A stretch of DNA of 64,000 bases, taken from NCBI RefSeq assembly GCF_002954355.1, contig NZ_MQVV01000010.1, forward strand, positions 62,001-126,000, written 5' to 3'. Numbering within the stretch: the first letter of the stretch is position 1; every line of letters begins with the position of its first letter. A program made the translations under genes and the position numbers. The notes below the pieces were generated by a model. That model had not been told where the DNA came from. It worked only from the letters and a program-made list of their open reading frames with translations, and made no database searches. This DNA is from Nonlabens tegetincola. Lineage in GTDB: Bacteria; Bacteroidota; Bacteroidia; Flavobacteriales; Flavobacteriaceae. Positions 2 through 63,869 of the stretch are shown here, piece by piece.

Positions 2-1930
2 GGAACCTACAACACTTTTCAATTTAGAGCCGTAATAAGAGAATTGGGTAAAGTATTTGGACTACCTAAAAGCGATATTGACAAACTTACCAGCGGGCAA
101 CTACCTGCTCATGAAATGGACGATATGCACCGACTGGTTTTTAAGTACGGTAACCTTATACAAGGCATGCCCAATTATATAAGTATTCATGCTGGTGGTA
201 TTTTAATTACACAAAAAAATATTCATTATTACAGCGCTACCGACTTGCCTCCTAAAGGATTTGCTACTGTTCAATTTGACATGCACATTGCAGAGGATGC
301 CGGAATTCACAAATTTGATATTCTGGCACAACGAGGTTTAGGAAAAATACGAGATACCGTGAGTATCGTTAAATACAACCAGCCAAATGCCGATATTAAG
401 GATTTGAGAGCTTGTGTAAAAGAGTTTAAAGAAGATCCTGAGATTAATGCCATGATATCGCAAGCAAAGTGTATAGGCTGCTTTTATATTGAATCGCCAG
501 CCATGCGCATGTTGTTAAGCAAATTGCGCACCCATGATTACTTAGGTTTAGTAGCAGCCAGTTCTGTGATAAGACCAGGAGTAGCGCAAAGCGGTATGAT
601 GAGAGAGTACATACTGCGTACTAGATATCCCGAGCGTCGCAAGCAAGCACACCCAATCATGTCTAGTATTATGCCAGACACGTATGGAATAATGGTGTAC
701 CAAGAAGACGTTATCAAGGTCGCTCATTATTATGCAAAATTAGATTTAGGTGCTGCAGATGTTTTACGTAGGGGAATGAGCGGCAAGTATAGATCTAGAG
801 AGGAATTTAAAGCCGTAGAAAAACAATATTTTGACAATTGTAAAAAACATGGCCGTGACGATAAGCAAGCAAAAGAAATCTGGGAACAAATTAAAAGCTT
901 TGCAGGATATGCCTTTGCCAAAGGACACTCGGCATCATATGCTGTTGAGAGTTATCAAAGTCTGTATTTAAAACGCTATTTCCCATTAGAGTACATGACA
1001 GCCACACTTAATAACGGCGGTGGCTTTTACAGACCAGAGTTATATGTTCATGAGGCTAAAATGTGTGGAGCAACTATAGAGGCTCCTTGTATAAATAACA
1101 GTGATTTTCAGAATACTATAAAAGGAACAACCATTTACCTAGCCTTAGGTTACTTAAAAGAACTAGAAAAACGTACTATACAGCGCCTTCTTGAGAGTAG
1201 AAATTTTGATGGGCCTTTTAATTCATTTGACGATTTTATAAATCGAGTTCCTATAAGCGCAGACCAAGCGGCTATTCTAATAAGGATAAATGCTTTTAGA
1301 TTTACGGGTTTAGACAGATGTATTTTACTGTGGCAGGCATACTTTAAACTCAACAAAAAAACCGCAGTTGATGTGCAAAGTAAATTGTTTGCTCCACAAA
1401 ATAAAAAGGTCAATTTACCGCAACTAAAAACTTCAAAACTAGAACATGCTTTTGAGCAAATGGAACTACTAGGTTTTCCGTTATGTTCTCATTTTGAACT
1501 TTTGGCTCAACAGCCCGACAACGATTTAACTCACAAAGATTTACCATCAAAAAAAGGTAAAACAATAACAATATACGGTTATGTAATTAACATTAAAACT
1601 ACTCATACTTCAAATAGAAAACGTATGCAGTTTGGTACTTTTTTAGACCGTGATGGTGGTTTTTTTGATACCGTGATGTTTCCTCAAGTGGCTTCAAAAT
1701 TACGCTTTCGCGGAAGCGGAATATATAAAGTCACCGGCAAGGTAGTAGAAGAATTTGACTTTTACTCTATTGAGGTCACACATATGGACAAAATGGATTA
1801 TATCCAAGATCCTAGATACGCTGAAGACAACCCACAAACCATTCACAGGTTAGATAAACAAACCAGTTTGAGAGATCGCAGACTAGGTAATTCAACTGGA
1901 AAACGCAGTGATGAAGTAAACATGAATTAA
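2..1930 (+). CDS. DNA polymerase III alpha-type subunit (DnaE-like), C-terminal part, cut by window edge
   Basis: This is the C-terminal two thirds of a bacterial C-family replicative polymerase, which extends DNA from dNTPs. The frame is open from base 2, and the residues before the TTG at 44 (TFQFRAVIRELGKVFGLP) continue the DnaE palm/fingers match, so the 5' end lies outside the window. Visible family segments are FDMHIAEDAGIHKFDIL, the fingers segment around SSVIRPGVAQSGMM, YQEDV, RRGMSGK and GYAFAKGHSASYA, followed by a helix-hairpin-helix-like region and an OB-fold near 1545-1760. The long tau-binding C-terminus of the main replicative DnaE appears absent, so I infer the alternative, mutasome-type DnaE often paired with Y-family polymerases. 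The stop is one base before the next ATG, so it is co-transcribed with the radical SAM gene. A near-copy of the CGCTTTCGCGAAAGCG palindrome lies at 1703-1718 and encodes RFRGS. Family assignment is sure; the paralogue type is inferred. Confidence 0.9.
   Translation, partial: GTYNTFQFRAVIRELGKVFGLPKSDIDKLTSGQLPAHEMDDMHRLVFKYGNLIQGMPNYISIHAGGILITQKNIHYYSATDLPPKGFATVQFDMHIAEDAGIHKFDILAQRGLGKIRDTVSIVKYNQPNADIKDLRACVKEFKEDPEINAMISQAKCIGCFYIESPAMRMLLSKLRTHDYLGLVAASSVIRPGVAQSGMMREYILRTRYPERRKQAHPIMSSIMPDTYGIMVYQEDVIKVAHYYAKLDLGAADVLRRGMSGKYRSREEFKAVEKQYFDNCKKHGRDDKQAKEIWEQIKSFAGYAFAKGHSASYAVESYQSLYLKRYFPLEYMTATLNNGGGFYRPELYVHEAKMCGATIEAPCINNSDFQNTIKGTTIYLALGYLKELEKRTIQRLLESRNFDGPFNSFDDFINRVPISADQAAILIRINAFRFTGLDRCILLWQAYFKLNKKTAVDVQSKLFAPQNKKVNLPQLKTSKLEHAFEQMELLGFPLCSHFELLAQQPDNDLTHKDLPSKKGKTITIYGYVINIKTTHTSNRKRMQFGTFLDRDGGFFDTVMFPQVASKLRFRGSGIYKVTGKVVEEFDFYSIEVTHMDKMDYIQDPRYAEDNPQTIHRLDKQTSLRDRRLGNSTGKRSDEVNMN
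1703..1718. repeat. Palindrome family copy 1 (one mismatch)
   Basis: The site is CGCTTTCGCGGAAGCG, one base different from the perfect palindrome. It is inside the DnaE-like gene, in the OB-fold region, and is read as RFRGS. Confidence 0.8.
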
Positions 1931-1931
1931 A

Positions 1932-3982: not shown

Positions 3983-4072
3983 CTTTCACCCTGTTTTTAA
4001 TCGATGAAAGGTGTAAATCATGGAACAAATTTGATTTTATAACAAATTTTACTGTAGTTTTCTTAAAAAACA

Positions 4073-4635: not shown

Positions 4636-4639
4636 TAAG

Positions 4640-7728: not shown

Positions 7729-8898
7729 TTATTTCCACGTGTAGCTCTTTTTTTCTGCTTGCTTTTGGATCGCCTTAAAAATGGCTGTTTCCAGGCCATT
7801 ACCTTCGGCCATGTTTTGCTCACTTATGTATTTTTCGCGTTTTATGTTTAACCCAGCTATTTGATTTTGTAGTTGTTTTCTAGTTTTTAATTCCGCTTTC
7901 GCGAAAGCGGCTACCTCATCCACACTTTTATTCTTAAGTGAATCTGGTAAAGTAGATTTGTTTTCTTTTATAATCTTTTTCAAAAGCTTGTCATCACCTG
8001 CGTTATCGACAAGATCCCAGCTCGCATTTTGGTAATTCGAAGACGATTTTGCTACCGATCTTTTTACCTGAACCTCTTCAGACACAACCATTGCCTCAAC
8101 ATCCATCTCAATTTGCAATTTTTGTTTTTGATTACCATAATCACCATAAGCGATATAGGTAGAGTTGAGTTGATTATTTAGCTCCAAAATTTTATCATCA
8201 TAAGGTGTCGCGACATACACCGTTCTTTTATTAGCATCAATATTAGTGTACTCTCCATTACCTAGTGAAGCACCTTCTTTCCACTTGAGGTTTATACCCG
8301 TTTGATATTCACCACAAAAAATGGTGTTTACTGTAATATCTTTTTTTTGCGCATCAATGATACTCTCCTTAAACGAAATTGTTCCCTGTGTAAAAACTTC
8401 GTTTCCTGCGATAAAAATCATTTTAAGATCTTGTTTTCCATCACGCCATTCCAGTTTCTTTATAGAGTTGTCAATTACTGCTCCACAATACTCGTCACCG
8501 CCATTAGTGCGCAAGGCAAATAACTCTTTACTCAACATATCTAGATCTGTAGAAAAAGGTAACACCTGTCTGATGTAATCGTCTTTTTCAGAAAGGCCAG
8601 AATTCCCGTACTCATATAATGCAATCTCTAATCCTGCCTGTTGATCGTTACAATGAGCCGAAGTCATTTTATTGACCACATCCCACAGCTGAGATTTTGC
8701 CTGATTGATAAGTCCATCCATACTATTGCTCGTATCTAATAATAAAGCGATTTGAATGGTTGCTTTTTTGGATCTATCAACCGGTTGATCAATAGGTGCT
8801 TGTTGATTAATCGAAAGTCGCACCTCGGTTTCTTTTTTCTCGGCGTTGCATGCTATACTTATTAAAGCTAGTCCTAGCATCAATATTTTCTTTTTCAT
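7729..8898 (-). CDS. VWA-domain lipoprotein
   Basis: The 389-residue protein has a signal peptide ending at lipobox ISIAC (C17) and then a von Willebrand factor A domain. The metal-binding MIDAS motif is LLLDTSNSM (D55, S57, S59), followed by GGDEYCGAVIDN and FIAGNEVF. VWA domains bind protein partners through a divalent cation; here the partner is unknown. The C-terminal third is helical and charged and includes AAFAKAEL, which is the translation of the genome palindrome at 7894-7909. It is the third gene of a minus-strand unit with a 2-base gap to the small secreted protein. I infer a role in envelope organisation or surface interaction, without a known pathway. Confidence 0.8.
   Translation of the reverse strand: MKKKILMLGLALISIACNAEKKETEVRLSINQQAPIDQPVDRSKKATIQIALLLDTSNSMDGLINQAKSQLWDVVNKMTSAHCNDQQAGLEIALYEYGNSGLSEKDDYIRQVLPFSTDLDMLSKELFALRTNGGDEYCGAVIDNSIKKLEWRDGKQDLKMIFIAGNEVFTQGTISFKESIIDAQKKDITVNTIFCGEYQTGINLKWKEGASLGNGEYTNIDANKRTVYVATPYDDKILELNNQLNSTYIAYGDYGNQKQKLQIEMDVEAMVVSEEVQVKRSVAKSSSNYQNASWDLVDNAGDDKLLKKIIKENKSTLPDSLKNKSVDEVAAFAKAELKTRKQLQNQIAGLNIKREKYISEQNMAEGNGLETAIFKAIQKQAEKKSYTWK
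7894..7909. repeat. Palindrome family copy 2
   Basis: A perfect CGCTTTCGCGAAAGCG inside the VWA lipoprotein gene, read on the minus strand as AFAKA. Confidence 0.95.
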
Positions 8899-10379: not shown

Positions 10380-10394
10380 CGCTTTCGCGAAAGC
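10380..10394. repeat. Palindrome family copy 3 (last base differs)
   Basis: CGCTTTCGCGAAAGC followed by A instead of G. It lies in the divergent gap between the SIMPL-like gene and the histidine kinase gene, where it could also affect promoters. Confidence 0.9.
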
Positions 10395-10472
10395 ATAATA
10401 AAAACCCTTAAATCGGCCCATTCTAGGAACTTGACGAGTAACTATCAAATTAATAATGACTAGTTTTACCAC

Positions 10473-14267: not shown

Positions 14268-14283
14268 CGCTTTCGCGAAAGCG
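14268..14283. repeat. Palindrome family copy 4
   Basis: A perfect CGCTTTCGCGAAAGCG in the intergenic gap just after the terminator of the secreted-protein gene and 42 bases upstream of the murI start. Confidence 0.95.
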
Positions 14284-19100: not shown

Positions 19101-19663
19101 TAAGACAGTAATTTTTCTATAGTTACTGGAAAATGCTCGTGCTCTAATTGATGAATACGATTTGCAAGTGATTCTATTGTATCATCCATTAAAACAGGAC
19201 AAGTAGCTTGATGAATTATTCCTCCTTCATCATAATGTTCATTTACGTAATGTATGGTAATCCCACTTTCTTTCTCCTTGTTAGATAGGACAGCACCATG
19301 TACATGATTTCCATACATTCCTTTTCCACCATATTTCGGTAATAGAGCAGGATGAATATTAACTATACGATTGGGAAACTCTTCAACCATAAACTCTGGT
19401 ATCTTCCATAAAAAACCTGCTAGCACGACTAAATCAGGATTAATTTGTTTTAAAATAGAATGAATGGATCCCGCTTTCGCGAAAGCGAACTTGTTAAAAC
19501 TTATCCCTTCAATACCAGCTTGTGTAGCCCTTTTTAAAACAAATGCGTTAGGTTTATTACTCAAAATATGAGTTACCTGTACTTGATCATTATTTTCAAA
19601 ATGATTTATAATTGCCTGAGCATTAGACCCATTACCACTAGCAAATATTACAATTTTCTTCAT
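19100..19663 (-). CDS. purN: Phosphoribosylglycinamide formyltransferase (GART)
   Basis: PurN transfers a formyl group from 10-formyl-tetrahydrofolate to GAR in purine synthesis. The 187-residue protein has the N-terminal FASGNGSNAQAI, the catalytic Asn-x-His in NIHPALLP, and ESGITIHYVNEHYDEGGII with the Asp. Its surface stretch KFAFAKAGS at about residues 58-66 is translated from the palindrome at 19472-19487. It is followed by rnhA with a 1-base overlap. The gap upstream is shared with divergent acpP. Confidence 0.96.
   Translation of the reverse strand: MKKIVIFASGNGSNAQAIINHFENNDQVQVTHILSNKPNAFVLKRATQAGIEGISFNKFAFAKAGSIHSILKQINPDLVVLAGFLWKIPEFMVEEFPNRIVNIHPALLPKYGGKGMYGNHVHGAVLSNKEKESGITIHYVNEHYDEGGIIHQATCPVLMDDTIESLANRIHQLEHEHFPVTIEKLLS
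19472..19487. repeat. Palindrome family copy 5
   Basis: A perfect CGCTTTCGCGAAAGCG inside purN, read on the minus strand as AFAKA. Confidence 0.95.
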
Positions 19664-24783: not shown

Positions 24784-25893
24784 CTAAAACTTAAAATCTA
24801 ATTGCACCTCTTCAATTTCATGTTCATCTTGTTCAGATTGATCATTATTAAGATTACTAAGGGTTATACCTAATAGTCTTACGCTTTCGCGAAAGCGATC
24901 TTGTTCTAACAGTTCAATTGCGGTTCTCAGTATAGTCTCCTTATCTCTAATGTAGTAGGGTAAGGTGATACTACGGGTTTGAGTTTTGAAATCACTGTAC
25001 TTGATTTTGAGGGTTACCGTTTTACCAGCAACATCAGATTTTTCAATGCGTTTTTCTATTTCGCCTGCTATTTGCTGCAAGCGCTCTTTCATAAATAATT
25101 CACTAGAAATATTCTCGGCAAAAGTACGCTCTGCTCCTAGAGATTTACGTATCCTATGAGGTTGTACGGGACTATTATGAATACCTCGTACGATATTAAA
25201 ATAATGCCTACCGCTTTTACCGAAATGCTCTGCAAGATATTCTAAAGACTTACTTTTTAAATCGGCGCCAGTAAAGATTCCATGTTGATACATTTTGTCT
25301 GCGGTTACCTTTCCTATACCATAAAACTTTCTGATTTCTAATTTTTCTAAAAAAGAAACCACTTGATCAGGAGTTATTGTTTTTTGACCATTAGGTTTAT
25401 TTATATCACTGGCAACCTTAGCAATAAATTTATTTATAGAGATGCCAGCACTAGCGGTAAGACCAGTAGTTTCATAAATACGCCTACGAATTTCATAAGC
25501 TATTATAGTAGCACTGGGAAAATTAAATTTATTTGCCGTAACATCTAGATAAGCCTCGTCTAGTGATAAAGGTTCGACTAGATCAGTATAATCATGGAAT
25601 ATTTCTCTTATTTGATTACTCACTTCTTTATAGCGATCAAACCTATGTTTTACAAAAATTAAATGAGGACACAATCGTGCAGCTGTGACACTGGGCATAG
25701 CGCTACGCACACCATATTTTCTAGCCTCGTAACTTGCTGCAGCTACTACTCCACGCTTACTACTACCACCTACAGCTATAGGTTTACCTCGTAATGATGG
25801 GTTATCATGCTGTTCGACACTTGCATAAAAAGCATCCATATCAACATGAATAATTTTTCTAGATACTTGATGTGATTCGTTTGACATTTTCAA
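24784..25893 (-). CDS. dinB: DNA polymerase IV (Y-family)
   Basis: DinB is an error-prone translesion polymerase. The 369-residue protein has the catalytic HVDMDAFYASVE (D18, D20), SLDEAYLD with the other acidic residues, AGISINKFIAK, and an HhH-like GIGKVTADKMY. The C-terminal little-finger domain includes RFRESVRLLGI, where the palindrome at 24882-24897 is translated as RFRES. I find no beta-clamp motif with certainty. It sits next to the PAS gene with a 62-base gap. Confidence 0.95.
   Translation of the reverse strand: MKMSNESHQVSRKIIHVDMDAFYASVEQHDNPSLRGKPIAVGGSSKRGVVAAASYEARKYGVRSAMPSVTAARLCPHLIFVKHRFDRYKEVSNQIREIFHDYTDLVEPLSLDEAYLDVTANKFNFPSATIIAYEIRRRIYETTGLTASAGISINKFIAKVASDINKPNGQKTITPDQVVSFLEKLEIRKFYGIGKVTADKMYQHGIFTGADLKSKSLEYLAEHFGKSGRHYFNIVRGIHNSPVQPHRIRKSLGAERTFAENISSELFMKERLQQIAGEIEKRIEKSDVAGKTVTLKIKYSDFKTQTRSITLPYYIRDKETILRTAIELLEQDRFRESVRLLGITLSNLNNDQSEQDEHEIEEVQLDFKF
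24882..24897. repeat. Palindrome family copy 6
   Basis: A perfect CGCTTTCGCGAAAGCG inside dinB near its 3' end, read on the minus strand as RFRES. Confidence 0.95.
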
Positions 25894-26885: not shown

Positions 26886-26919
26886 CACTTATCTTAGTAC
26901 TATCCTCAAATCAATCTTT

Positions 26920-27582
26920 ATGGGTTATAGTGCTATAATAATTGGAGCCACTGGTCTATGTGGTAGTGTTTTATTGGAAAAATTACTGCAAAATGAGCAG
27001 TATGATAGTGTGATTACGCTTTCGCGAAAGCGTATCAACCACCAAAACCCTAAACATAAAAATTATATTGTTGACCTATTTGATCCATCTACTTATGTGG
27101 ACCACTTACATGGAGATCATTTATTTATTTGTACCGGTACTACCCAATCAAAGACACCAGATAAAGCCGAATACTACAAAATTGAGCATGATCTACCACT
27201 TTTAGTAGCTCAACAGGCTAAGGACAATGAAATATCCACTGTCATAGCCATAAGTGCACTAGGAGCAAATCCTGAAAGCAGATTTCTATATAACCGAGGC
27301 AAAGGAGAAATGGAGCGCGACATAAAGGATCTAAATTTCAAAGCCGCCTATTTTGTTCAACCAGCATTGATAAGTGGACCCAGAGATGAAAAACGCCCCT
27401 TTGAAAGCATGTGGAAAAAAGTACAGAAATTGATTGATCCACTTCTTATAGGACCTCTTAAAAAATACCGCAGTATTGCACCAAAAACAATCGCCACTGC
27501 TATGATTCATATAGCATTACATGGGTATGAAAAATCGCGGATTGAAAGCGATGAGCTCATTGAAATAGCAACCGTAAAATAA
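26920..27582 (+). CDS. NAD(P)-binding Rossmann-fold protein (HTATIP2-like)
   Basis: The 220-residue product starts at ATG 26920 (MGYSAIIIGATGLCGS). A longer frame at 26848 would overlap the previous gene, so I reject it. The dinucleotide-binding motif is GATGLCG. The family segments TGTTQSKTP, VIAISALGAN and YFVQPALISGPR follow human HTATIP2/oxidoreductase HTATIP2-type proteins. The substrate is unknown. The palindrome at 27017-27032 is translated as TLSRKR, just after the first helix. It is 35 bases after the secreted protein gene. Confidence 0.75.
   Translation: MGYSAIIIGATGLCGSVLLEKLLQNEQYDSVITLSRKRINHQNPKHKNYIVDLFDPSTYVDHLHGDHLFICTGTTQSKTPDKAEYYKIEHDLPLLVAQQAKDNEISTVIAISALGANPESRFLYNRGKGEMERDIKDLNFKAAYFVQPALISGPRDEKRPFESMWKKVQKLIDPLLIGPLKKYRSIAPKTIATAMIHIALHGYEKSRIESDELIEIATVK
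27017..27032. repeat. Palindrome family copy 7
   Basis: A perfect CGCTTTCGCGAAAGCG inside the NAD(P)-binding protein gene, read on the plus strand as TLSRKR. Confidence 0.95.
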
Positions 27583-34357: not shown

Positions 34358-34401
34358 GATAATCAGTTTTTTAGTTACCGCGATAGTGTTGTTTTGGATT
34401 A

Positions 34402-34417
34402 CGCTTTCGCGAAAGCG
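34402..34417. repeat. Palindrome family copy 9
   Basis: A perfect CGCTTTCGCGAAAGCG in the gap between accB and accC, flanked by TTA/TAA so that the symmetry extends to 22 bases. Confidence 0.95.
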
Positions 34418-34461
34418 TAATTTTCCATGGACACTAACACAAACAATAAATCCCTCTTAAA

Positions 34462-41687: not shown

Positions 41688-41703
41688 CGCTTTCGCGAAA
41701 GCG
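41688..41703. repeat. Palindrome family copy 10
   Basis: A perfect CGCTTTCGCGAAAGCG in the divergent gap between the MBL gene and the antiporter gene, 57 bases before the antiporter start. Confidence 0.95.
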
Positions 41704-45560: not shown

Positions 45561-47975
45561 ATGAATAGATTTTTCCCTTACCTATTCTTCCTTGTTTCTT
45601 TTAGTTCGTTTGCACAGCACGAGCTTACAGCAAGACTCATCGATGAAAAGAATGAATCCCTACCCTATCTAAATAGTATTCTTTACAAAATGCCAGACAG
45701 TACGTTTTATCAAGGTACAAGCAGTGACGATCTGGGTAAAGTCCTTTTTAAGAACATAGAAGATGGTGAATATACGATGGTGGTTACAGGTGTAGGTTAT
45801 GTTACGCTTTCGCGAAAGCTTACCATTAACAGCAATCAAAATCTAGGTGACCTTATAGTCCAAGAGCAAATTGAATCCATGGATGCGGTCACTGTCACAG
45901 CCAAAAGACCTACTGTAACTAAGAAAGCGGATAGGCTCATTTTTAATGTAGAGAATACCAGTCTGAGTAATACTGATGCATTGACCATATTACGCAGTTC
46001 GCCTGGTGTTTTTAAACAAAACAACACTTATATAGTTAAAGGACAGGCCGCTCAAATTTATATTAATAATAAAAGAGTATATCTAACCGATGATGAGCTC
46101 AATCAATTACTAGCTGGCTACAGTGGTGATAATGTCAAAAATGTAGAGGTCATTACCAATCCACCGGCAAGTTACGATGCCGAAGGTGGAACAGTCATAA
46201 ATATTAACACTAGTAAAGGAATCTCATTAGGTTACAAGGGTAATGTGATGGGTAGTTATACTATCGACGAGCTTGCCAAATACAAAATAGGTACTTCACA
46301 TTTTTATAAAAATAATTGGGTAAATATATATGCCAACTACAGTTACAACCCAAGAGAAGATCTTTATATAGAAGAAAACGAAATAGGCTTTTTTAATCCT
46401 GATGGTACTAGATCGCAACGCTGGTTCACTGATTATAATAATGTGAATGAAAGTGATGCTCACAGCCTGAATACTGTTATAGATTTTAGCTTAAGTAGTA
46501 AAAGCTATCTAAGTGTTTCTGGAAATATTAACGTTAACAACAATCAAGATGGTGATGCTTTTACACGCACATTAATTCTTCAAGATGGTGATACCGATTT
46601 TTCAGGCTTAGAAACTAACGGTCTCAATGAACGAGACGCAACAACTGGTTTTGTGAATGCCGACTACAACTATTATGCAGATAACGGGAATGTCCTTAGG
46701 CTTTATGGAAATCATGTATTTACCAATAAAGACAACTATCAGGATGTTTTTACAAGATTTTTTGACACTCAAAATAATACCACTGGAAGTAATAGTTTTT
46801 TGTCGGACATAGATCTTGATGTGGCTATTTACACAGCTGGGATAGACTATCAATTCGCATTAGGCGAATACCAATTAAGCACTGGAGCTAAGTATAATCA
46901 AATTGATTCACAAACCGTACAGGATTTCTTTGATTCAAATGGAACTTCACCGATTATTGTTCCTGCTAACTCGGATAACTATGCCTATGATGAAAAAATC
47001 ATTGCTTTCTACGGACAAATGGAACGCAATTGGGAAAAATGGTTTCTGACCGCTGGACTAAGAGCTGAGCAAACTGATATTACAGGTGATTCAAGAAGTC
47101 TAGGAATAGTGAATACTCAAAACTATCTTTCATGGTTTCCTACGGCATCATTAGGACATTCGCTTGATGAAAGCAACACTCTTACTTTAAGTTACAAAAG
47201 AAGCATTGAAAGACCACGTTATGAGAGTCTAAATCCCTATAGAATTTTTGTAAATGAAACCAATTTTAATTCTGGTAATCCTAATTTAATGCCATCATTC
47301 AACAATAAATATAGTGTTGCATGGAATCATAACGACACCTGGTTTTTTGACGCTTATTATTTGTATTCAAAGGACTTACTTTCTATTCTACCTTTTCAAG
47401 ATAATAATGCAAACAGTTTAAATTTTCAAAATGCTAATTTGAACTACGAGCTACAATATAGTCTAGATATTGAAACCTTTCAATACCCAACTGATTCTTG
47501 GTTGCTTGCACTTTCTGCTAGTTTCTTTTATTTAGAAAACGAATTTGTTGCAGTACAGTCCGGCGGTGTGGACCAAAAGCAGGACGTGACAGGAGTTTAT
47601 CTCTCTAGCTTTAGTAGATTTAGTCTTTCAGAAGATCGTACCTGGTCTTTGGATGCCGAGCTAAATTATGTAAGTGATATCTTATTTGGTTCGTTTAGAA
47701 TGCAAAATATGATCGTGAGTAACTTTGCCATAAACAAATCGTTATGGAACCGTAGAGCAAATCTTAGGATTGCATATAATGATGTTTTTAGAGGTCAAAA
47801 CAGATTAATGGAGTCTATTTATCGTAATCAAGACGTAGGCGTTACTTATTTACCAGAGACTAACACCTTTAGTGTCGCATTCACTTACAATTTTGGAAAT
47901 TATGGTCTAAGAAACAATGAAGTAGAAGAACCTGAAGAGAAAGAACGTACACAACAACAATCTCTAGGACTTTAA
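45561..47975 (+). CDS. Outer-membrane beta-barrel protein (OMP_b-brl_3, TonB-receptor-like)
   Basis: The 804-residue protein has a signal peptide (FPYLFFLVSFSSFAQ), an N-terminal carboxypeptidase-regulatory-like domain, a plug-like segment (ALTILRSSPGVF, IYINNKRVYLTDDEL, VKNVEVITNPPASYDAEGGTV), then a long beta-barrel. This is the Bacteroidota family of TonB-dependent-receptor-like proteins without a clear TonB box. The substrate is unknown. The palindrome at 45805-45819 is translated as TLSRKL in the N-terminal domain. Its stop shares TTAA with the convergent glycosyltransferase gene. Confidence 0.88.
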   Translation: MNRFFPYLFFLVSFSSFAQHELTARLIDEKNESLPYLNSILYKMPDSTFYQGTSSDDLGKVLFKNIEDGEYTMVVTGVGYVTLSRKLTINSNQNLGDLIVQEQIESMDAVTVTAKRPTVTKKADRLIFNVENTSLSNTDALTILRSSPGVFKQNNTYIVKGQAAQIYINNKRVYLTDDELNQLLAGYSGDNVKNVEVITNPPASYDAEGGTVININTSKGISLGYKGNVMGSYTIDELAKYKIGTSHFYKNNWVNIYANYSYNPREDLYIEENEIGFFNPDGTRSQRWFTDYNNVNESDAHSLNTVIDFSLSSKSYLSVSGNINVNNNQDGDAFTRTLILQDGDTDFSGLETNGLNERDATTGFVNADYNYYADNGNVLRLYGNHVFTNKDNYQDVFTRFFDTQNNTTGSNSFLSDIDLDVAIYTAGIDYQFALGEYQLSTGAKYNQIDSQTVQDFFDSNGTSPIIVPANSDNYAYDEKIIAFYGQMERNWEKWFLTAGLRAEQTDITGDSRSLGIVNTQNYLSWFPTASLGHSLDESNTLTLSYKRSIERPRYESLNPYRIFVNETNFNSGNPNLMPSFNNKYSVAWNHNDTWFFDAYYLYSKDLLSILPFQDNNANSLNFQNANLNYELQYSLDIETFQYPTDSWLLALSASFFYLENEFVAVQSGGVDQKQDVTGVYLSSFSRFSLSEDRTWSLDAELNYVSDILFGSFRMQNMIVSNFAINKSLWNRRANLRIAYNDVFRGQNRLMESIYRNQDVGVTYLPETNTFSVAFTYNFGNYGLRNNEVEEPEEKERTQQQSLGL
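45805..45819. repeat. Palindrome family copy 11 (last base differs)
   Basis: CGCTTTCGCGAAAGC followed by T. It lies in the N-terminal domain of the outer-membrane protein and reads TLSRKL. Confidence 0.9.
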
Positions 47976-48748
47976 TCCAGTTTTTTAATCATGGCTTTCT
48001 TTATAAACCATTGCTCATAAATAAAAAGCACCATGGACCAACAGCTTTTTAAAAAAGAATAGTTAAGGTGGTTGCGATATACAGCATAGTTATATTTAAT
48101 CAGACTACTTTTTCGTGAACTCAACCCATTGCCTGCTCTATAACTCGCAATGGGTTTTTCTATACCAATAGCTGTGCCCGATAGTTTAATCACATCCAAC
48201 CACATGGCCCAATCTTGTCTTTTACGTAATGAAGACACAGCAACCTTTCCTATTTTATGGGTATCGTAAATTCCTGTCAAATTCCCTACATAGTTTGCTC
48301 GTAGTAACTTTTTATAAGTTAGTGAATTGAAAACCTTTTGAAGGTATTTAGGCTCATTCGCATTTTCTGTGAATATCTCATAAGCACCATAGGACATCGC
48401 CGTTTGTGACAGTCTCATTTGTTCGATTTGCAAGGAGAGTTTATAGGGTTTCCAAAGATCATCGGCGTCTAAAAAGGCAATATATCTACCCTTTGCTAGC
48501 TCGACTGCCCGATTACGAGTAAAACCAGCTCCTTTGTTTTCTTTATTTTCTTGAATTATAAAACTTATTCCTTGAGAAGAATTTTTTGTAGAATACGCTT
48601 TCGCGAAAGCGTGACTATCATCAACACTGCAGTCGTCAACAATTATTAATTCAATAGGCCGGTAGTCTTGATTTAAAACGCTATCTAGGGTTTCTCCTAA
48701 TGTATCTTGGTTGTTGTAAGTTGGTATTATAACACTTACTAAATCCAT
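47972..48748 (-). CDS. Glycosyltransferase family 2
   Basis: GT2 enzymes move a sugar from a nucleotide sugar to a polysaccharide or lipid acceptor. The 258-residue protein has SVIIPTYNNQDTL, the metal-related LIIVDDCSVDDS, and IAFLDADDLW (DxD), typical of the GT-A fold. The palindrome at 48596-48611 is read as SHAFAKAYS. It overlaps the glycosylphosphotransferase gene by one base, so both work in one exopolysaccharide or lipopolysaccharide path. Donor and acceptor are not known. Confidence 0.93.
   Translation of the reverse strand: MDLVSVIIPTYNNQDTLGETLDSVLNQDYRPIELIIVDDCSVDDSHAFAKAYSTKNSSQGISFIIQENKENKGAGFTRNRAVELAKGRYIAFLDADDLWKPYKLSLQIEQMRLSQTAMSYGAYEIFTENANEPKYLQKVFNSLTYKKLLRANYVGNLTGIYDTHKIGKVAVSSLRKRQDWAMWLDVIKLSGTAIGIEKPIASYRAGNGLSSRKSSLIKYNYAVYRNHLNYSFLKSCWSMVLFIYEQWFIKKAMIKKLD
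48596..48611. repeat. Palindrome family copy 12
   Basis: A perfect CGCTTTCGCGAAAGCG inside the GT2 gene, read on the minus strand as AFAKA. Confidence 0.95.
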
Positions 48749-51130: not shown

Positions 51131-51763
51131 TTACTCGAGAAATGACATAGGGTCTAATACTATATCCTTATAATGTTCAAGCTCCTCTTTAGCGGCTACT
51201 CCTGGGAAATCTCCTTGATATCCTTTCATATCTGTCATTACTTGAAAATGTAAATGCGGACTATAACCACCATTTTCTTGAGGTGTTCCTAAATGAGCTA
51301 TTATTTCGCTTTCGCGAAAGCGATATCCAACTTCCCATATTTTTACATCATCCAAACTCAAATGACCGTACAGTGTATATATCGCTTGTCCATCAATATC
51401 GTGTTGCAAGATCAACGTAGGACCATAATTTCCAGGATCACTATTGTGCGCATAACTGTGAACTACACCATCATACATTGCATGAACAGTGGTTCCTGCT
51501 GGCGCCCATATGTCTACTCCTAGATGAATGTCACGTACAATTCCTTTATTGAATCTTTCATTTTTTTGATAAAGAGCTCGCTGTTCTAAGTAGCCACCTA
51601 TGGCCAAAAAAGCGTCGTGAGATTTACGCTGTTGCTCGATATACTCATGACACACCGATATGTCGGCCACATCATTAAGTTTCCAAAAAGGATTATTGAT
51701 TGAAAGGTCAAGAGGGAAATAACCTTTTTGTGACAATTGTGGATCAAGCAAATGTCTTTTCAT
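51131..51763 (-). CDS. M23-family metallopeptidase (LytM-like)
   Basis: The 210-residue protein has the Zn-binding HLGVD and HLHFQV motifs of M23 peptidases, which cut peptidoglycan cross-links or related peptides. No signal peptide or lipobox is seen, so the location is not obvious: it may be exported by another route or act on internal substrates. The palindrome at 51307-51322 is translated as RFRESE in the middle of the domain. The gene is 11 bases from the CoA transferase gene. Confidence 0.88.
   Translation of the reverse strand: MKRHLLDPQLSQKGYFPLDLSINNPFWKLNDVADISVCHEYIEQQRKSHDAFLAIGGYLEQRALYQKNERFNKGIVRDIHLGVDIWAPAGTTVHAMYDGVVHSYAHNSDPGNYGPTLILQHDIDGQAIYTLYGHLSLDDVKIWEVGYRFRESEIIAHLGTPQENGGYSPHLHFQVMTDMKGYQGDFPGVAAKEELEHYKDIVLDPMSFLE
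51307..51322. repeat. Palindrome family copy 13
   Basis: A perfect CGCTTTCGCGAAAGCG inside the M23 gene, read on the minus strand as RFRES. Confidence 0.95.
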
Positions 51764-53028: not shown

Positions 53029-54399
53029 TTAAGCAAAAAGGTATCTAACTAAGTCTTCAATTTTTGAAAAGGCAACAACCTGAGCAGTAGAGTTTTTAAA
53101 ATTTTGTTTGGCTGGTGCAATACAAATTCTTTCAAAGCCTAATTTACCAGCTTCATTAATACGTTGCTCCATTCTACTAGCTGTTCTTATTTCTCCGCCC
53201 AGACCAACCTCAGCACTGAAACAGTGTTTGGGATTGAGTGCTATATCAAAATTTGATGACAATATAGCTGCGACCACTGCAAGATCGATTGCTGGATCAT
53301 CAACATTAATACCGCCAGTAATGTTTAGAAAAACATCCTTTTGTCCTAATTTGAATCCTGCCCTTTTTTCTAGGACTGCTAGTATCATATTAAGACGTTT
53401 TAAATTATAACCCGTTGCACTGCGTTGTGGTGTTCCATAAACAGCCGTACTTACTAGTGCTTGAACCTCGATCATAAGTGGTCGCATACCTTCCATCGTA
53501 GCTGCAATTGCGGTTCCACTAATTTCAAGATCTTTGTTAGCAATCAATATTTCACTAGGATTAGTTACTTCACGCAATCCATGGCCTAACATTTCATAAA
53601 TACCTATTTCATGAGTGCTGCCAAAACGGTTTTTAAGAGCTCGCAAAATTCTATACGTATGGTTGCGATCTCCTTCAAATTGTAGCACGGTGTCTACCAT
53701 GTGCTCAAGAATCTTGGGCCCAGCAATGTGACCATCTTTTGTAATGTGGCCTATTACAATAACAGGAGTAGCTGTTTGTTTAGCAAATTTTATTAATTCA
53801 CCTGTACATTCTCTTATTTGTGAAACACTACCTGCGGTACTTTCTATGTGTTGTGTTTGTAAAGTTTGAATCGAATCGATTATTAAAACATCAGGCTCAA
53901 TATCACTTACTTGTTTAAAAATGTTTTGAGTCTTCGTCTCAGTGAGTATGTAGCAATTTTCGGCGTTTTTGTTAATACGATCTGCTCGCATTTTTATTTG
54001 TTGCGCACTTTCCTCACCACTTACATACAAAGTTTTAAAAGGCAAATTCAAACACACTTGCAACAATAGTGTTGATTTACCTATACCTGGTTCACCACCT
54101 AGCAAGGTAACCGATCCAGGAACCAATCCACCACCTAGCACTCTATTGAACTCTAGATTAGTAGTATCCAATCGTGGACTTTCTTGAGCATTTATTTCGG
54201 AAATGCGTTGAGGTTTTGAATTACGCTTTCGCGAAAGCGTACCTGGCACATCACCTGTTTGCCAACTAGGAGTTTGCTCTTTTTGAACTACTTCTTCTAC
54301 TAAAGAATCCCACTTTTTACAGGTGGTGCATTGTCCTTGCCATTTTGCGTACTGGGCACCACAATTTTGACAGTACCACGTTGTCTTTACTTTTGCCAT
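53029..54399 (-). CDS. radA: DNA repair protein RadA
   Basis: RadA helps branch migration in recombination. The 456-residue protein has the N-terminal Zn finger CQNCGAQYAKWQGQCTTC, Walker A GGEPGIGKSTLL, the KNRFGS motif, and a C-terminal Lon-like domain. The linker between the finger and the ATPase contains TLSRKRNS, the translation of the palindrome at 54224-54239. The ATG overlaps the stop of the esterase-like gene by one base. Confidence 0.97.
   Translation of the reverse strand: MAKVKTTWYCQNCGAQYAKWQGQCTTCKKWDSLVEEVVQKEQTPSWQTGDVPGTLSRKRNSKPQRISEINAQESPRLDTTNLEFNRVLGGGLVPGSVTLLGGEPGIGKSTLLLQVCLNLPFKTLYVSGEESAQQIKMRADRINKNAENCYILTETKTQNIFKQVSDIEPDVLIIDSIQTLQTQHIESTAGSVSQIRECTGELIKFAKQTATPVIVIGHITKDGHIAGPKILEHMVDTVLQFEGDRNHTYRILRALKNRFGSTHEIGIYEMLGHGLREVTNPSEILIANKDLEISGTAIAATMEGMRPLMIEVQALVSTAVYGTPQRSATGYNLKRLNMILAVLEKRAGFKLGQKDVFLNITGGINVDDPAIDLAVVAAILSSNFDIALNPKHCFSAEVGLGGEIRTASRMEQRINEAGKLGFERICIAPAKQNFKNSTAQVVAFSKIEDLVRYLFA
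54224..54239. repeat. Palindrome family copy 14
   Basis: A perfect CGCTTTCGCGAAAGCG inside radA, read on the minus strand as TLSRKR in the linker between the zinc finger and the ATPase. Confidence 0.95.
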
Positions 54400-55565
54400 T
54401 ATTCTTTAGCTTGTAAGGCCTCTACCTTATCTAAACAATCATCCTTTGTTAAACCTACAGCCTCTTCTAATATATAGGCCTGTTCAAAAGATTTGATCGC
54501 ACGACCATATCTACCTATACCTTCGTATCCCATTCCTTCTATAAACTTACCGTACATGATATCTGGATATTCCTTATCAACAATGGTTGCCATATCGAGT
54601 AATTGTTCCCAGTCTTTTTCTCTAATAATATATTCTGACATAGTTACGAGGTCCTTTAATCTCAATTTCATGTCGATGCCATACACTTTTTTCACATATT
54701 CATATTTGTCCAGCAAAGTTTGTACGGCTGTTTTCATATCAGCAGTACGATTTGCACTTTCTTTAGAGGTATCCTGAGCAAGATTGGAATTTAATAGTTG
54801 CTCACCTTCTACCAATTGGTATTCATTAAATATGAAATCCAATCCACGTGGTATAGCTTGCGCTGCAACGTTATAAAAATTAGTTTCTTCAATACTTTCA
54901 TGCTTCAACTTCACATTCTCTTTAGTAGAAAACAGAGAATCTGTTTGTTCAGAGAACAGCTCGCTGGCGACATTTTTTTGTGCGCTGGTAGCTACATAAA
55001 AATAATTGTACTCATCCAGACTAGATATTTTGTTAACTAGATTCTCTTGAATAAGTGTAGTGTAATCCGGTTCTATTTGTAAAAAAGCATCTATAGCCAC
55101 TTTTTTACGCATGAGAAAAAAGCTCGCAAGATTTGCATTTATATCCTTTGCCACTAAAACGGTAAATGGTGCAACTCGATATTCTTTTTGCATGGTCGTC
55201 ACAAGTTCCATGATAAAATCCATGTAACGTTGAGCTTGCTCCTCGGGAAAGCCTGATTCGACGTTGATAGCTGTATCATCGTACCGGCTTTTACGTTGAT
55301 TTATTCCTACTACAAAGGATTCGGGCATTTGATCCCAATAAGACAAATAATCCACTACTCCTGAAACGGGTTCAAAAAGATAATCACCATCTAAGACTAG
55401 GATTAATGGATAAGTTTTTTCTTGGTTACTATTGTAGTTACGTGGTTTAAGAATTTTTACGTTGCGTTCTCCTCCTAAAACATCGCTAGGAAATGACCTG
55501 TACAATGCTTGTGAATACGTGGTTAAACAGGACAGAAAAGCAAACGCAATAACAATATTTTTCAT
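54399..55565 (-). CDS. Esterase-D-like alpha/beta-hydrolase without the nucleophile serine
   Basis: The 388-residue secreted protein (signal LSCLTTYSQ) has the fold of Fes/esterase-D proteins: YPLILVLDGDYLFEP, ESFVVGINQRKSRYDDT and a C-terminal TPR-like part near 310-388. At the nucleophile elbow, usually GHSLGG, it has AKDINAN (residues 139-145), so the Ser is Asp (D141). I infer a non-hydrolytic, possibly binding, protein. The ATG lies inside the end of the flippase-like gene (80-base overlap). radA follows at the stop. Confidence 0.72.
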   Translation of the reverse strand: MKNIVIAFAFLSCLTTYSQALYRSFPSDVLGGERNVKILKPRNYNSNQEKTYPLILVLDGDYLFEPVSGVVDYLSYWDQMPESFVVGINQRKSRYDDTAINVESGFPEEQAQRYMDFIMELVTTMQKEYRVAPFTVLVAKDINANLASFFLMRKKVAIDAFLQIEPDYTTLIQENLVNKISSLDEYNYFYVATSAQKNVASELFSEQTDSLFSTKENVKLKHESIEETNFYNVAAQAIPRGLDFIFNEYQLVEGEQLLNSNLAQDTSKESANRTADMKTAVQTLLDKYEYVKKVYGIDMKLRLKDLVTMSEYIIREKDWEQLLDMATIVDKEYPDIMYGKFIEGMGYEGIGRYGRAIKSFEQAYILEEAVGLTKDDCLDKVEALQAKE

Positions 55566-56574
55566 CTCCGTTTTTTGAGATGCTGAATTTAAGAAAAATG
55601 AAGAGATTATTTTTTAAACTCAATAATATGAAAGAAATTAATCCGTACACTAGAACCAGTGCTGTTTGTGATAGCCACAATATCCAGCCCAATGAAGTTC
55701 CTACCGTTTCTGGTACATGAAACAATAATAACACCTGAGCAATCAAAAAAGGATAAGCTCCAAATCCTCCATTTGTAAACGCTACTGCAAAACTACCTGC
55801 TACAAAGGCTGCTAATATAGCAGCAACAGCAAATGTTCCCTCATATGAAATTGCAAATACACTCACGTAAAACATGGCTAGGTACATGAACCAGATAAAA
55901 AAAGTATGTATTAAATACAGCCACTTTTTTTTCATTGTCCAAATGGTTGAAAAGCCTTCTTTCATACCTTTTAAAAAGTCAAGTACTTTTCGGTACAATC
56001 CTAACCTTTTGATTAAAAATATTCCCAGTAGTATTACTGAGATTACTATTGCTAAGTATAACAGTAATTGTGATGAGTTCGCTTTCGCGAAAGCGGACTT
56101 AAAACCACCAATAAAGTATTCTAAAAAGACGTCTTGTGATAAAAATAAAGCGATGGCGGTTATTAATAGTAAGATACCAAAATCCAGCACACGTTCTGCA
56201 ACTATAGTACCTATTGCTTTATTAACAGGTATACCGTGGTTACGATTTACAACTATCGCTCTAGATAATTCACCACTACGAGGAATAAAAATATTCATAG
56301 CATACCCTATTCCAATTGCAGTAATATTTGTCAAAAATGTAGGTGGTTTTCCAAACTGGGATAGCATGTAATTCCATCTCCAAGCTCTAGACAAATGACT
56401 GAGTAAAGCTAGAATTAAACCAACTATAACATAGTAATAATTTGCACCTTTAATTTGTGCATATATTTGTTCTAACTGCTCGTTTGTGAACTGATTATAT
56501 GAATAATAAATGAGCCATGCACCTATAAATAAAGGCAAGCCTATTTTCAAAAATTTAATCAGATTGTTTTTCAA
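55486..56574 (-). CDS. Lysylphosphatidylglycerol synthase-type flippase membrane protein
   Basis: The 362-residue product has about eight to nine membrane helices and segments such as HLSRAWRWNYML, IGYAMNIFIPRSGELSRA, TNGGFGAYPF, typical of the YbhN/aglD group. These proteins are thought to move lipids or to work in cell-wall lipid handling. The palindrome at 56080-56095 is translated as SAFAKANSS in a loop. The last 26 residues (rich in Cys) are in an 80-base overlap with the esterase-like gene, so the usual stop may have been lost. panD is 3 bases upstream. Confidence 0.85.
   Translation of the reverse strand: MKNNLIKFLKIGLPLFIGAWLIYYSYNQFTNEQLEQIYAQIKGANYYYVIVGLILALLSHLSRAWRWNYMLSQFGKPPTFLTNITAIGIGYAMNIFIPRSGELSRAIVVNRNHGIPVNKAIGTIVAERVLDFGILLLITAIALFLSQDVFLEYFIGGFKSAFAKANSSQLLLYLAIVISVILLGIFLIKRLGLYRKVLDFLKGMKEGFSTIWTMKKKWLYLIHTFFIWFMYLAMFYVSVFAISYEGTFAVAAILAAFVAGSFAVAFTNGGFGAYPFLIAQVLLLFHVPETVGTSLGWILWLSQTALVLVYGLISFILLSLKNNLFIFLKFSISKNGDEKYCYCVCFSVLFNHVFTSIVQVIS
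56080..56095. repeat. Palindrome family copy 15
   Basis: A perfect CGCTTTCGCGAAAGCG inside the flippase-like gene, read on the minus strand as AFAKA. Confidence 0.95.
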
Positions 56575-60501: not shown

Positions 60502-60507
60502 CCTATT

Positions 60508-62355: not shown

Positions 62356-62382
62356 TCTTAAGGTTCATTCACTTACAATATA

Positions 62383-62413
62383 AAAGGCCACTATTATTAT
62401 AATAGTGGCCTTT
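62383..62413. terminator. Bidirectional terminator after glmS
   Basis: A perfect 13-base stem, AAAGGCCACTATT/AATAGTGGCCTTT, with a 5-base loop. It lies between glmS and the converging LEA-2 lipoprotein gene. Confidence 0.9.
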
Positions 62414-62436
62414 GTACTTAAAAAGAGGTTACTACC

Positions 62437-62913
62437 TTAAAACTTGAATTTCACAGGGACTTCTAAGCTGTCAATAACCGGAACTGTAATAGAAAAAACA
62501 CCTTTTTCTATATCTACTGAGCCATCATACTTCACAGCTACCTTTTTATTGCCCAATACCTGAAGGGCGATATCAATCATTTGATTACCTCTTTTTCCGA
62601 TTAAATCTTTAGGCGATAACTGAGCCTTAATGGGGAATTCAAATTCTGAATTTCCTGGCATTATTGCATCTGATGTTTGATGAATAGTAGCAGACTTATA
62701 ATTATTAATGTATACATCAAAATCAGCTTGTTTTAATTGTAGACCAATATCGTTAGGGTTATACATTACACAAACTGCTTGTAGCTCAACTGAATCTCGT
62801 GTAATATTTAATAACTCTGCTTGCTCAATTCGCAAGAACACTACATCCTCATATGGATTGGAACAAGAAAAGGAAACCAATGCAACGACAAAAAGTATAA
62901 AAATCTTTTTCAT
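62437..62913 (-). CDS. LEA type 2 (WHy domain) lipoprotein
   Basis: The 158-residue protein has a lipobox FSC (C17). The following domain, with AVCVMYNPNDIGLQLKQADF and DVYINNYKS, matches the LEA-2/WHy beta-sandwich. These proteins are often linked to water stress, but the bacterial function is not clear. The ATG overlaps the stop of the ABC ATPase gene by one base, so the two are translated together. Confidence 0.88.
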   Translation of the reverse strand: MKKIFILFVVALVSFSCSNPYEDVVFLRIEQAELLNITRDSVELQAVCVMYNPNDIGLQLKQADFDVYINNYKSATIHQTSDAIMPGNSEFEFPIKAQLSPKDLIGKRGNQMIDIALQVLGNKKVAVKYDGSVDIEKGVFSITVPVIDSLEVPVKFKF

Positions 62914-63869
62914 TATTTAATTATTCTTATAGAAACAAAAATATCAATACTAATATCACTGTCATGATAAAAGTACACGTAAATATCTTTTAATAAAGCT
63001 TTTACTAGATAGGTGCTTCCCTCAAAAAAGGTTTGCACAACTTGTACTTTGACTCCTTCATTATCAACAATCTCAATGCCATGAGGATAGACTAGCAACT
63101 CTTTATTATTATTAAGATATCCTGGTGGTATCACATTCACCTCTTCAAATAAAGATGCTGTATAGAAGGTGCCGGGAAAATTATAAATATTATGAGTATC
63201 ACCTTGAATTTCTATATGACCATCTTTCATCACAACAGTACGGTTTGTAAACGATAGAACATCATTCTTATCATGAGTAGCAATCATACACGCTATCCGA
63301 TTGCTTTTTAAATAGGCAAATAACCTACGCCTTAATTCGTTTTTCCTAAAATTATCAATGTGTGAAAATGGCTCATCTAGCAATAAAAGCTGTGGCTCTT
63401 GCGCAAGTGCTTTAGCTAGGGCTACTCTTTGTTTTTGTCCACCAGAAAGGTTTTTAACAATTGTATTTTTAAATGACGTAAGATCAACTGTATCTAAAAG
63501 TTCATCAATACGGTTTACTCTGTCATCATTTTGAATTGATAAATGTTCACCTATATTTTCGGCAACGGTGGTAAATGGCATCAAATCAAATTCTTGTGGC
63601 ACGTATTTCATCATTGAATGCCCGGGAACCAAATGATAATCGGGACCTAGTAATTCTTCATCATACCAATAAACTTTACCGCTTTCTTGTTGTAATAATC
63701 CATATGTCAAATTCAACAACGTACTTTTGCCACATCCACTTTCACCAATAATTGCCGCAATCTCACCTGTTTTGATTGCCAGGTTAATATTTTTTAGATT
63801 GTACGATGATTCATGGTTTTGATTATCCGCTTTCGCGAAAGCGAAATTTATATCTACTAATCGTAACAT
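62913..63869 (-). CDS. ABC transporter ATP-binding protein
   Basis: The 318-residue ATPase has Walker A GESGCGKST (42-50), the signature LSGGQKQRVALAKALA, Walker B LLLLDEPFSH and a switch His in ATHDKND. The last 100 residues resemble a TOBE-like domain as in import ATPases (CysA/PotA). No permease is in the window. The N-terminal FAFAKAD is the palindrome at 63828-63843. The substrate is unknown. Confidence 0.9.
   Translation of the reverse strand: MLRLVDINFAFAKADNQNHESSYNLKNINLAIKTGEIAAIIGESGCGKSTLLNLTYGLLQQESGKVYWYDEELLGPDYHLVPGHSMMKYVPQEFDLMPFTTVAENIGEHLSIQNDDRVNRIDELLDTVDLTSFKNTIVKNLSGGQKQRVALAKALAQEPQLLLLDEPFSHIDNFRKNELRRRLFAYLKSNRIACMIATHDKNDVLSFTNRTVVMKDGHIEIQGDTHNIYNFPGTFYTASLFEEVNVIPPGYLNNNKELLVYPHGIEIVDNEGVKVQVVQTFFEGSTYLVKALLKDIYVYFYHDSDISIDIFVSIRIIK
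63828..63843. repeat. Palindrome family copy 16
   Basis: A perfect CGCTTTCGCGAAAGCG at the start of the ABC ATPase gene, read on the minus strand as AFAKA (residues 10-14). Confidence 0.95.

Follow-up and report, generated by a model that had tools for sequence, protein, structure and literature searches.

Why should a bacterial chromosome repeat one 16-bp palindrome every few kilobases? This question is raised by a 64,000-nucleotide stretch of Nonlabens tegetincola (contig NZ_MQVV01000010.1, positions 62,001 to 126,000), hereafter called the window, in which a search allowing up to three mismatches found 16 palindrome sites, 12 exact and four with one mismatch. These are the same 16 places, with the same division into exact and altered copies, that were listed in the original prediction made from the letters of the window, which held that such a word is not expected by chance; in 100 dinucleotide shuffles of the window, we obtained a mean of 0.05 matches and a maximum of 2. 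Relative to open reading frames (ORFs) of at least 100 amino acids, 12 sites lie inside and four between, and no ORF contains two copies, as had been claimed at the level of genes. The gaps between sites, first given as 1.9–7.7 kb, measure 1856–7748 bp with a coefficient of variation (CV) of 0.43; in the wider spacing analysis given below, the sites are placed more evenly than the "rather evenly spread" of that prediction suggests. From the comparisons presented below, we propose that the palindrome is the core of a lineage-specific, genome-wide tag of self DNA, most likely a DNA uptake sequence, which would be read by a putative dimeric protein, and we put the probability of this reading at roughly 0.45.

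The original prediction had named a genome-wide count, a count in relatives and a comparison with a Markov model as checks, and all three showed the palindrome to be a genome-wide word and not a peculiarity of the window. The genome of origin (3.03 Mb in 21 contigs; G000) contains 464 exact 16-mers and no copy of the reversed control word; the inner 14-mer GCTTTCGCGAAAGC occurs 577 times (control 0), and 628 places match with at most two mismatches (control 2). Four genomes were sampled in detail, namely G000, G002, Dokdonia sinensis (G250) and G234, which represents, like SAT149, a further motif lineage. In all four, the 9- and 11-mers that most exceed the expectation of a fifth-order Markov model come from the palindrome; for example, CGCTTTCGCGA occurs 174 times on both strands of 464 kb, with 3.5 expected. 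The 22 other Nonlabens genomes hold 180–737 exact copies each, with controls at 0 (423 in BBFL7, 579 in N. xylanidelens, 480 in N. antarcticus), and the motif is dense in all 23 Nonlabens genomes searched. Among the 36 members of other genera compared alongside, one has four copies and 35 have none.

A survey of 397 Flavobacteriaceae genomes found the motif in 48, of which six are dense and 42 carry 1–13 copies, and none in the remaining 349. The six dense genomes are four Nonlabens (including the genome of origin), D. sinensis (630 copies) and G234 (153). In 13 genomes picked for holding the motif, D. pacifica has 576 exact copies and SAT149 has 162, and the motif-rich records that bear names belong to Nonlabens, Dokdonia and relatives. 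The 14-mer is found 408 times in G234 and 369 times in SAT149, that is, one per 7.6–7.8 kb versus one per 5.2 kb in the genome of origin, which indicates that a shorter word is in use there at somewhat lower density. In D. sinensis, 1052 places have at most two mismatches, compared with its 630 exact copies. At the level of the phylum, 22 of 395 genomes match and, apart from G000, these hold 1–6 copies each.

The unit is larger than was seen earlier: the palindrome of 14–16 bp lies within a symmetric element of about 50 bp. In 464 kb of one contig of the genome of origin, 79 sites are exact, 23 have one mismatch, five have two, one has three and four have four. Nonlabens follows this all-or-none rule strictly. 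D. sinensis and G234 follow it more loosely: they have more intermediate forms (19 and 23 sites, respectively, with two mismatches; 20 and 23 sites with three), and in many of these one arm is intact. One-base deviations fall on the outermost bases in 14/23 cases in G000, 16/20 in G002, 12/17 in G250 and 23/24 in G234; in G000, a further 8/23 affect position 6/11 and 0/23 the central CGCG. On each strand, the flank 5' of the palindrome is T/G-rich and C-poor, with about 18 bp conserved per side. In the Nonlabens flank columns −4 to −18, C accounts for 2–10% versus a background of about 18%, and this skew is lost by −31 to −40. Core and ordered flank are present in both Nonlabens and Dokdonia, the flanks of the latter being the same with few exceptions (C reaches 25% at −8 in Dokdonia loci), and the flank signal is weak in G234.

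Within the flank, T is favoured at −3, −4, −7, −10 and −13, counted from the 14-mer. Because genes have a period of three of their own, this pattern was checked on sites outside ORFs alone, where T reaches 0.66 at −4, −7, −10 and −13 versus 0.42 in the intervening columns (n = 238 half-sites). Of the six coding classes, three show the contrast clearly and two more weakly (0.51 vs 0.38 and 0.46 vs 0.38), and the sixth lacks it (0.36 vs 0.39). The bases of the left and right flanks scarcely covary (largest excess 0.39 vs 0.30), which favours double-stranded DNA with two independently read half-sites over a stem, be it of RNA or a cruciform, that reaches into the flank. An RNA hairpin or intrinsic terminator was rejected on the same ground, and also because 59 of the 79 exact sites in those 464 kb lie inside ORFs, at any relative position.

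Palindrome positions 8–15 give each strand the word GCGAAAGC, which we take to be a DNA mini-hairpin of unusual stability; position 6/11, where an inner change is tolerated, coincides with a base of its loop. A single-stranded signal for replication restart or recombination, a palindromic relative of the Chi site made up of this hairpin and the G/T-rich 5' flank, would account for that tolerance (8/23 in G000), for the G/T-rich flank with T at each third base from −4 to −13, given that RecA favours G/T-rich DNA, and for the mean gap of about 4.4 kb in Nonlabens, a density similar to that of Chi in Escherichia coli. Chi sites share the G/T-rich surroundings. However, they are short and strand-biased, whereas the palindrome is far longer and, being a palindrome, has no strand bias; for a hairpin an ordered flank would be unnecessary, and the flanks scarcely covary. 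We therefore regard such a signal as quite improbable.

The symmetry also invites comparison with HIP1 (GCGATCGC), the highly iterated palindrome of cyanobacteria, to which the original prediction had likened the repeat. The likeness holds in kind, both being highly iterated palindromes kept inside genes and deviating mainly at the outer bases, but not as membership: the palindrome has 16 bp instead of 8, differs in sequence and phylum, is evenly spaced, has ordered flanks, and its inner hexamer is not enriched alone. It is also about four times sparser than HIP1 at the density of one per 1000 nt given in passages of Elhai (PMC4390886). Judged from its sequence, the palindrome appears to work like known iterated signals without being a member of HIP1. 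The suggestion that its TCGCGA core is a restriction or methylation unit is not supported. Outside the 14-mer, TCGCGA occurs near expectation (observed/expected: G000 30/31.2, G002 20/28.3, G250 66/57.3, G234 114/93.7), leaving no clear signal of restriction avoidance, and conservation covers the 14–16 bases together with some 18 bp of either flank, a length well beyond what an enzyme recognising 6 bp would read.

These counts bear as well on Elhai's model, in which an orphan methyltransferase, together with mismatch repair directed by strand, would produce such sites as a by-product, their number ratcheting up until all bases lie within reach of repair. A highly iterated palindrome with a spacing limit would be in agreement with it, and so would one-base deviations that are mostly outermost, as passages on HIP1 give them (PMC4390886). 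However, TCGCGA is not enriched outside the motif, and the central CGCG is hit by 0/43 one-mismatch sites of G000 and G002, although by 3/17 in D. sinensis, so that little decay by C deamination is seen in the former two. To our knowledge, no methyltransferase reads 14–16 bp plus flanks, and we consider this origin improbable.

Next, we looked at the placement of the sites relative to genes. In the four genomes, 63–84% of copies lie inside ORFs, and of the 59 exact sites inside ORFs in the 464-kb sample, 36 fall in the frame AFAKA. By simple ORF calls, made without a gene finder, the share of 14-mers between ORFs is 27% in G000, 36% in G250, 37% in G002 and 16% in G234, and noncoding DNA makes up 6.5%, 8.1%, 9.5% and 7.2%, respectively. 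For the comparison of orthologues, 185 alignable gene pairs were used in which one partner has a site (at least 45% identity, 70% coverage; the pairs overlap and are not independent). In the 167 pairs ungapped at the site, the 14 bases of the partner show no mismatch in 104 cases, one in 11, two in two and at least three in 50. Between Nonlabens orthologues, the site is thus mostly kept whole or lost, nearly all-or-none. Where it is kept (115 pairs with 0–1 mismatch), the site residues are 95% identical versus 57.5% for the 12 residues on either side; where it is lacking, other residues stand in its place without a gap. A gap at the site occurs in 18/185 pairs; of these, 15 belong to a single linker gene, whose LSRKR stretch exists in a shifted position, and are counted within the "absent" class of 68. 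Amino-acid identity of the flanks is 0.565 (n = 184), whereas windows drawn at random from these alignments reach 0.696, so the sites occupy permissive, more variable positions of proteins. Replaced residues instead of gaps, together with the high identity at kept sites, show that sites arise by overwriting and are later protected.

A mobile or repetitive element, such as a repetitive extragenic palindrome (REP) with its associated tyrosine transposase (RAYT) or a Rickettsia-type palindromic element, or else a transcription terminator, would also be palindromic, dispersed and found both in and between genes, and in G002 10/28 intergenic copies do lie between convergent genes. But over the four genomes only 14/91 intergenic copies are between convergent genes and 20/91 between divergent ones, most copies sit within ORFs, and the orthologues lacking a site show replacement with hardly a gap beyond the linker gene. 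An explanation of this type is very improbable; insertion elements and REP or bacterial interspersed mosaic elements (BIMEs) were rejected, as there is no insertion footprint and the copies are mostly inside ORFs.

The spacing of the sites was analysed using all those with at most two mismatches and 300 nulls that keep the intergenic share and allow one site per gene. In four Nonlabens species (275 sites in 1.27 Mb), the mean gap is 4.35 kb and the CV is 0.46 versus 0.95 in the nulls (lowest null 0.83); these species are not four independent tests, since many sites are common by descent. Observed against expected numbers of gaps are 21 vs 90 below 2 kb, 68 vs 29 at 3–4 kb and 14 vs 45 above 8 kb. 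D. sinensis likewise gave a CV of 0.61 vs 0.92 (lowest null 0.69), with 25 vs 10 gaps of 3–4 kb, and G234 a CV of 0.74 vs 0.90, which is within reach of the nulls (lowest 0.61); the test took 90 and 68 sites of these two genomes, versus 102 and 72 in a separate count. Gaps below 1.5 kb, compared with uniform random nulls, number 3/31 in G000, 13/35 in G250, 7/23 in G002 and 7/17 in G234 (observed/expected). Both extremes are avoided, close pairs as well as long deserts, which makes the regularity two-sided. Gene-level constraint as its source was rejected by the null with one site per gene and a preserved intergenic share.

Such spacing could reflect a chromosome-organising site, at which a dimeric nucleoid protein comparable to Noc, MatP or a condensin loader would bind, and the 3–4-kb array would set the size of loops or domains over the entire chromosome. 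A palindrome of 14–16 bp read by a dimer would fit this class, and the TTTC...GAAA arms resemble parS and the Noc site. Symmetric flanks with nearly independent half-sites, the steep fall from 79 exact sites to 23, 5 and 1 with one, two and three mismatches, and the 3–4-kb peak in both Nonlabens and D. sinensis speak for it, as does the presence of the motif in phage contigs and its absence from the phages P12024S and P12024L, described below. However, Noc-binding sites, parS and matS number tens of copies or fewer, unlike the hundreds of the palindrome, and the organiser is without a candidate protein. G000, G002, G010, G250 and G234 have one ParB each, so that a second ParB is excluded in five motif genomes and a Noc-like ParB paralogue was rejected as reader. 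A second, longer ParB-like frame (414–616 amino acids) exists in the motif genomes G019, G439 and G451, and also in G033 and G061, which lack a genome-wide motif; it is probably part of a mobile element in these five genomes. In G033, this frame lies on a contig that also bears palindrome copies.

Overwriting and permissive placement are explained equally well by uptake, and the regularity of G234, being within the nulls, argues against a strict architectural need. Nevertheless, the organiser stays a strong rival, if less likely than uptake, because the word is palindromic, occurs in phage contigs and is spaced in a ruler-like, two-sided way. If it were correct, the bacterial chromosome would carry a sequence-encoded ruler of 3–4 kb. 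The protein-binding site and the uptake signal, which the original prediction had offered among several possibilities, remain as the two leading readings.

Phage sequences were searched as well. Neither of the Nonlabens phages P12024S and P12024L, whose related records annotate no integrase, contains a site within three mismatches or a TCGCGA (35,000 of the 35,652 bases of P12024L were covered); at host density, about 6.8 sites are expected in one such phage (P ~0.001). In IMG/VR, 41 stretches carry the exact word. Ten contigs of this database have 2–6 copies in 12–28 kb of sequence, a density that represents an upper bound because they were picked for holding the motif, and two of the ten, alike in the lengths of their successive ORFs, probably represent variants of a single phage. 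When 10 proteins from four contigs were compared with protein families, nine matched those of phage heads, tails or terminases or, in one contig, of an integrase, and one had no match.

In the other bacterial genera, with low counts, the copies among the matches listed are often clustered, with recurring distances of about 933, 2446 and 3460 bp. One such cluster (G122:C1:2822001-2842000) resembles a copper or heavy-metal resistance module when its translated frames are read by eye; the palindrome stands inside several of its genes, in the frames AFAKA and RFRES, and its spacings recur in other genera. As the genus has no genome-wide motif, this island looks as if it had passed through a motif-bearing host. 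Under either leading reading, the motif would serve as a convenient mark of DNA with a history in these hosts, the apparent copper-resistance island being an example.

In two sister genera that lack the palindrome, a different word, CTTCGGAAA, is iterated at 7–14 times the reversed control (G120 817/58, G330 440/42, G033 921/91, G286 736/100; genera g95 and g12). At least threefold enrichment was found in 16/149 genomes of the family, one of the 16 having just 29 copies. The word is poor in motif genomes (6 vs 37 and 17 vs 48 in Nonlabens, 8 vs 64 in SAT149, 31 vs 65 in D. sinensis, 39 vs 88 in G234), but it is scarce in palindrome-free genomes as well (G131 23 vs 69, G031 28 vs 74), so mutual exclusion of the two words is not shown. 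In G120, the copies of CTTCGGAAA have AT-rich flanks on both sides and 13/36 lie between ORFs; a related word, TTTCTGAAAT, was noticed there too. Going by the sequence features at hand, CTTCGGAAA may be a dialect of the palindrome system or unrelated to it. On a ParB tree, G033 (g12) and G120 (g95) group beside Nonlabens with support of 98/97, apart from Dokdonia, SAT149 and G234, and on this one gene the distribution of the palindrome requires three changes.

The palindrome is not a genome-wide word in these genomes, in which G033 has 9 places with at most two mismatches, G120 26, G330 29 and G286 9. As side observations, G095, G120 and G330, none of which uses the word genome-wide, have 26–29 such places versus 1–3 for controls, which may represent islands, remnants or a weaker system, and in G286 seven of the nine near-palindromes bear the T6C/A11G change (e.g. 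CGCTTCCGCGAAAGCG) that is tolerated in Nonlabens, so that they are perhaps remnants of a variant form. A scan of ten genera, 40 kb each, detected no other iterated word; this is a weak negative, since the scan missed CTTCGGAAA in G145, G317, G117 and G328, where whole-genome counts make it evident. The scanned part of G145 (C1:100001-140000; 32% GC genome) holds a GC-rich dispersed repeat with the words GGCAGCGACGCC and CGGTTAAGGCTA at 14–15 separate places in 40 kb.

We return to the proposed uptake sequence. With its strict core, ordered flanks, origin by overwriting, permissive positions and even cover, the element resembles the DNA uptake sequences (DUSs) of Neisseria and the uptake signal sequences (USSs) of Haemophilus influenzae, and an uptake or recombination tag is therefore our first choice. 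In its favour are also the 180–737 exact copies per Nonlabens genome without background, the intergenic share of sites (16–37%) above the share of noncoding DNA (6.5–9.5%), and the other iterated word in two sister genera. The passages describing USSs and DUSs give them hundreds of copies or more, permissive positions within genes and a fairly even spread, as seen for the palindrome. The USS is portrayed there as a core with AT-tracts and a relatively even distribution (PMC7811141); for Neisseria, passages of PMC2397512 state that one DUS is enough, that close pairs add nothing and that spacing is near the recombination tract. New DUSs are further said there to face unrelated sequence (PMC2397512), and new palindrome sites likewise stand opposite unrelated residues. 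On this reading, a homodimer would read the element as double-stranded DNA, DNA carrying one site would be preferentially imported or recombined, and a second site nearby would add little. Even spacing would be expected if one site per fragment suffices, and this coverage rule, combined with recombination-borne spread, would yield gaps of 3–4 kb.

Several observations weigh against uptake. Unlike USSs and DUSs, the element is a palindrome, symmetric over about 50 bp, with a mean gap of about 4.4 kb vs about 1–1.5 kb, and it also occurs in phage contigs; uptake words known to us are non-palindromic, and we know of no competence of Nonlabens or Dokdonia. The two-sided regularity, with long gaps rare too, exceeds what an uptake drive needs. 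The four IMG/VR contigs with phage genes carry the motif at host-like density, and Neisseria DUSs, in the passages concerned, are absent from newly acquired genes (PMC2397512). The second word gives little help: in G033 and G286, CTTCGGAAA has no clear flanks and no intergenic excess (1/17 and 0/12 copies between ORFs), and its spacing is uneven (CV 0.94 in G120, 1.74 in G033 and 0.68 on 12 sites in G286). Membership among uptake sequences requires an uptake assay and cannot be claimed from sequence.

For a possible receptor, precedent comes from Riemerella. According to passages of two studies, Riemerella columbina prefers its own DNA for uptake, no pilus homologues were found in Riemerella, and transformation there needs genes of its own (PMC7965970, PMC8459023), among them those for a predicted surface protein with DUF5689 and an adjacent predicted outer-membrane protein (PMC8459023). 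The pilus finding sets the transformable Flavobacteriaceae described there apart from the bearers of USSs and DUSs. By this family precedent only, the DUF5689 surface protein is a candidate receptor. We identified DUF5689 proteins in 20/20 genomes tested, with or without the palindrome (best frames of 466–499 residues in 18, of 681 and 742 in two), and their presence therefore tells nothing. Their weakly resolved tree, a further point against uptake, is not sorted by motif: the eight palindrome genomes need three changes and form one clade in 0% of bootstraps.

Within the searched literature, which left most subscription journals and bioRxiv out of reach, no description of the palindrome or of CTTCGGAAA was found. 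The 12–14-mers of the palindrome appear only in papers unrelated by title, "highly iterated palindrome" leads by title to cyanobacteria and to oligomer frequencies, and work on uptake sequences in Flavobacteriaceae is confined to Riemerella, with no description of the palindrome. Among the rows listed in the k-mer counts for Riemerella and Flavobacterium johnsoniae are A-rich words, as given in a part of PMC7965970. If the palindrome were an uptake code, it would be a strong candidate uptake sequence for the Flavobacteriaceae, some of which are transformable though pilus homologues were not found, and its receptor should be findable with a 50-bp bait. Leaving the choice of function aside, we tentatively suggest, at somewhat less than even odds, that the chromosome carries a quasi-regular lattice, with one symmetric putative protein site of about 50 bp per 3–4 kb, kept by selection on spacing. 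This lattice would be the visible half of an undescribed system, either a chromosome-wide organiser or a self-recognition code with dialects among the Flavobacteriaceae, the palindrome in Nonlabens and Dokdonia and CTTCGGAAA in others.

Positions of the palindrome copies in the 64-kb window and of one example of the whole element
Feature	Position	Context
Palindrome copy, one mismatch (A11G)	1703..1718	within ORF 44-1930(+)
Exact palindrome	7894..7909	within ORF 7729-8898(-), frame AFAKA
Palindrome copy, last base altered	10380..10395	intergenic
Exact palindrome	14268..14283	intergenic
Exact palindrome	19472..19487	within ORF 19100-19663(-)
Exact palindrome	24882..24897	within ORF 24784-25893(-), frame RFRES
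Exact palindrome	27017..27032	within ORF 26848-27582(+)
Palindrome copy, one mismatch (T6C)	30987..31002	within ORF 29503-32910(-)
Exact palindrome	34402..34417	intergenic, TTA/TAA on its sides
Exact palindrome	41688..41703	intergenic
Palindrome copy, last base altered	45805..45820	within ORF 45561-47975(+), frame LSRKL
Exact palindrome	48596..48611	within ORF 47972-48748(-), frame AFAKA
Exact palindrome	51307..51322	within ORF 51131-51763(-), frame RFRES
Exact palindrome	54224..54239	within ORF 53029-54399(-), frame LSRKR; exact motif in 7/8 orthologous matches
Exact palindrome	56080..56095	within ORF 55486-56574(-), frame AFAKA; exact motif in 4/8 orthologous matches
Exact palindrome	63828..63843	within ORF 62913-63869(-)
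Example of whole symmetric element of about 50 bp	34384..34435	T/G-rich, C-poor flank, palindrome, A/C-rich, G-poor flank; extent is the family average, not proven for this copy

The altered copy at 45805-45820 lies in a protein that is TonB-receptor-like by eye. The exact 16-mer is present in none of the aligned Nonlabens matches to this protein, and the site is possibly a fossil or a one-base variant; the LSRK stretch itself is kept in 17 of the 18 matches.

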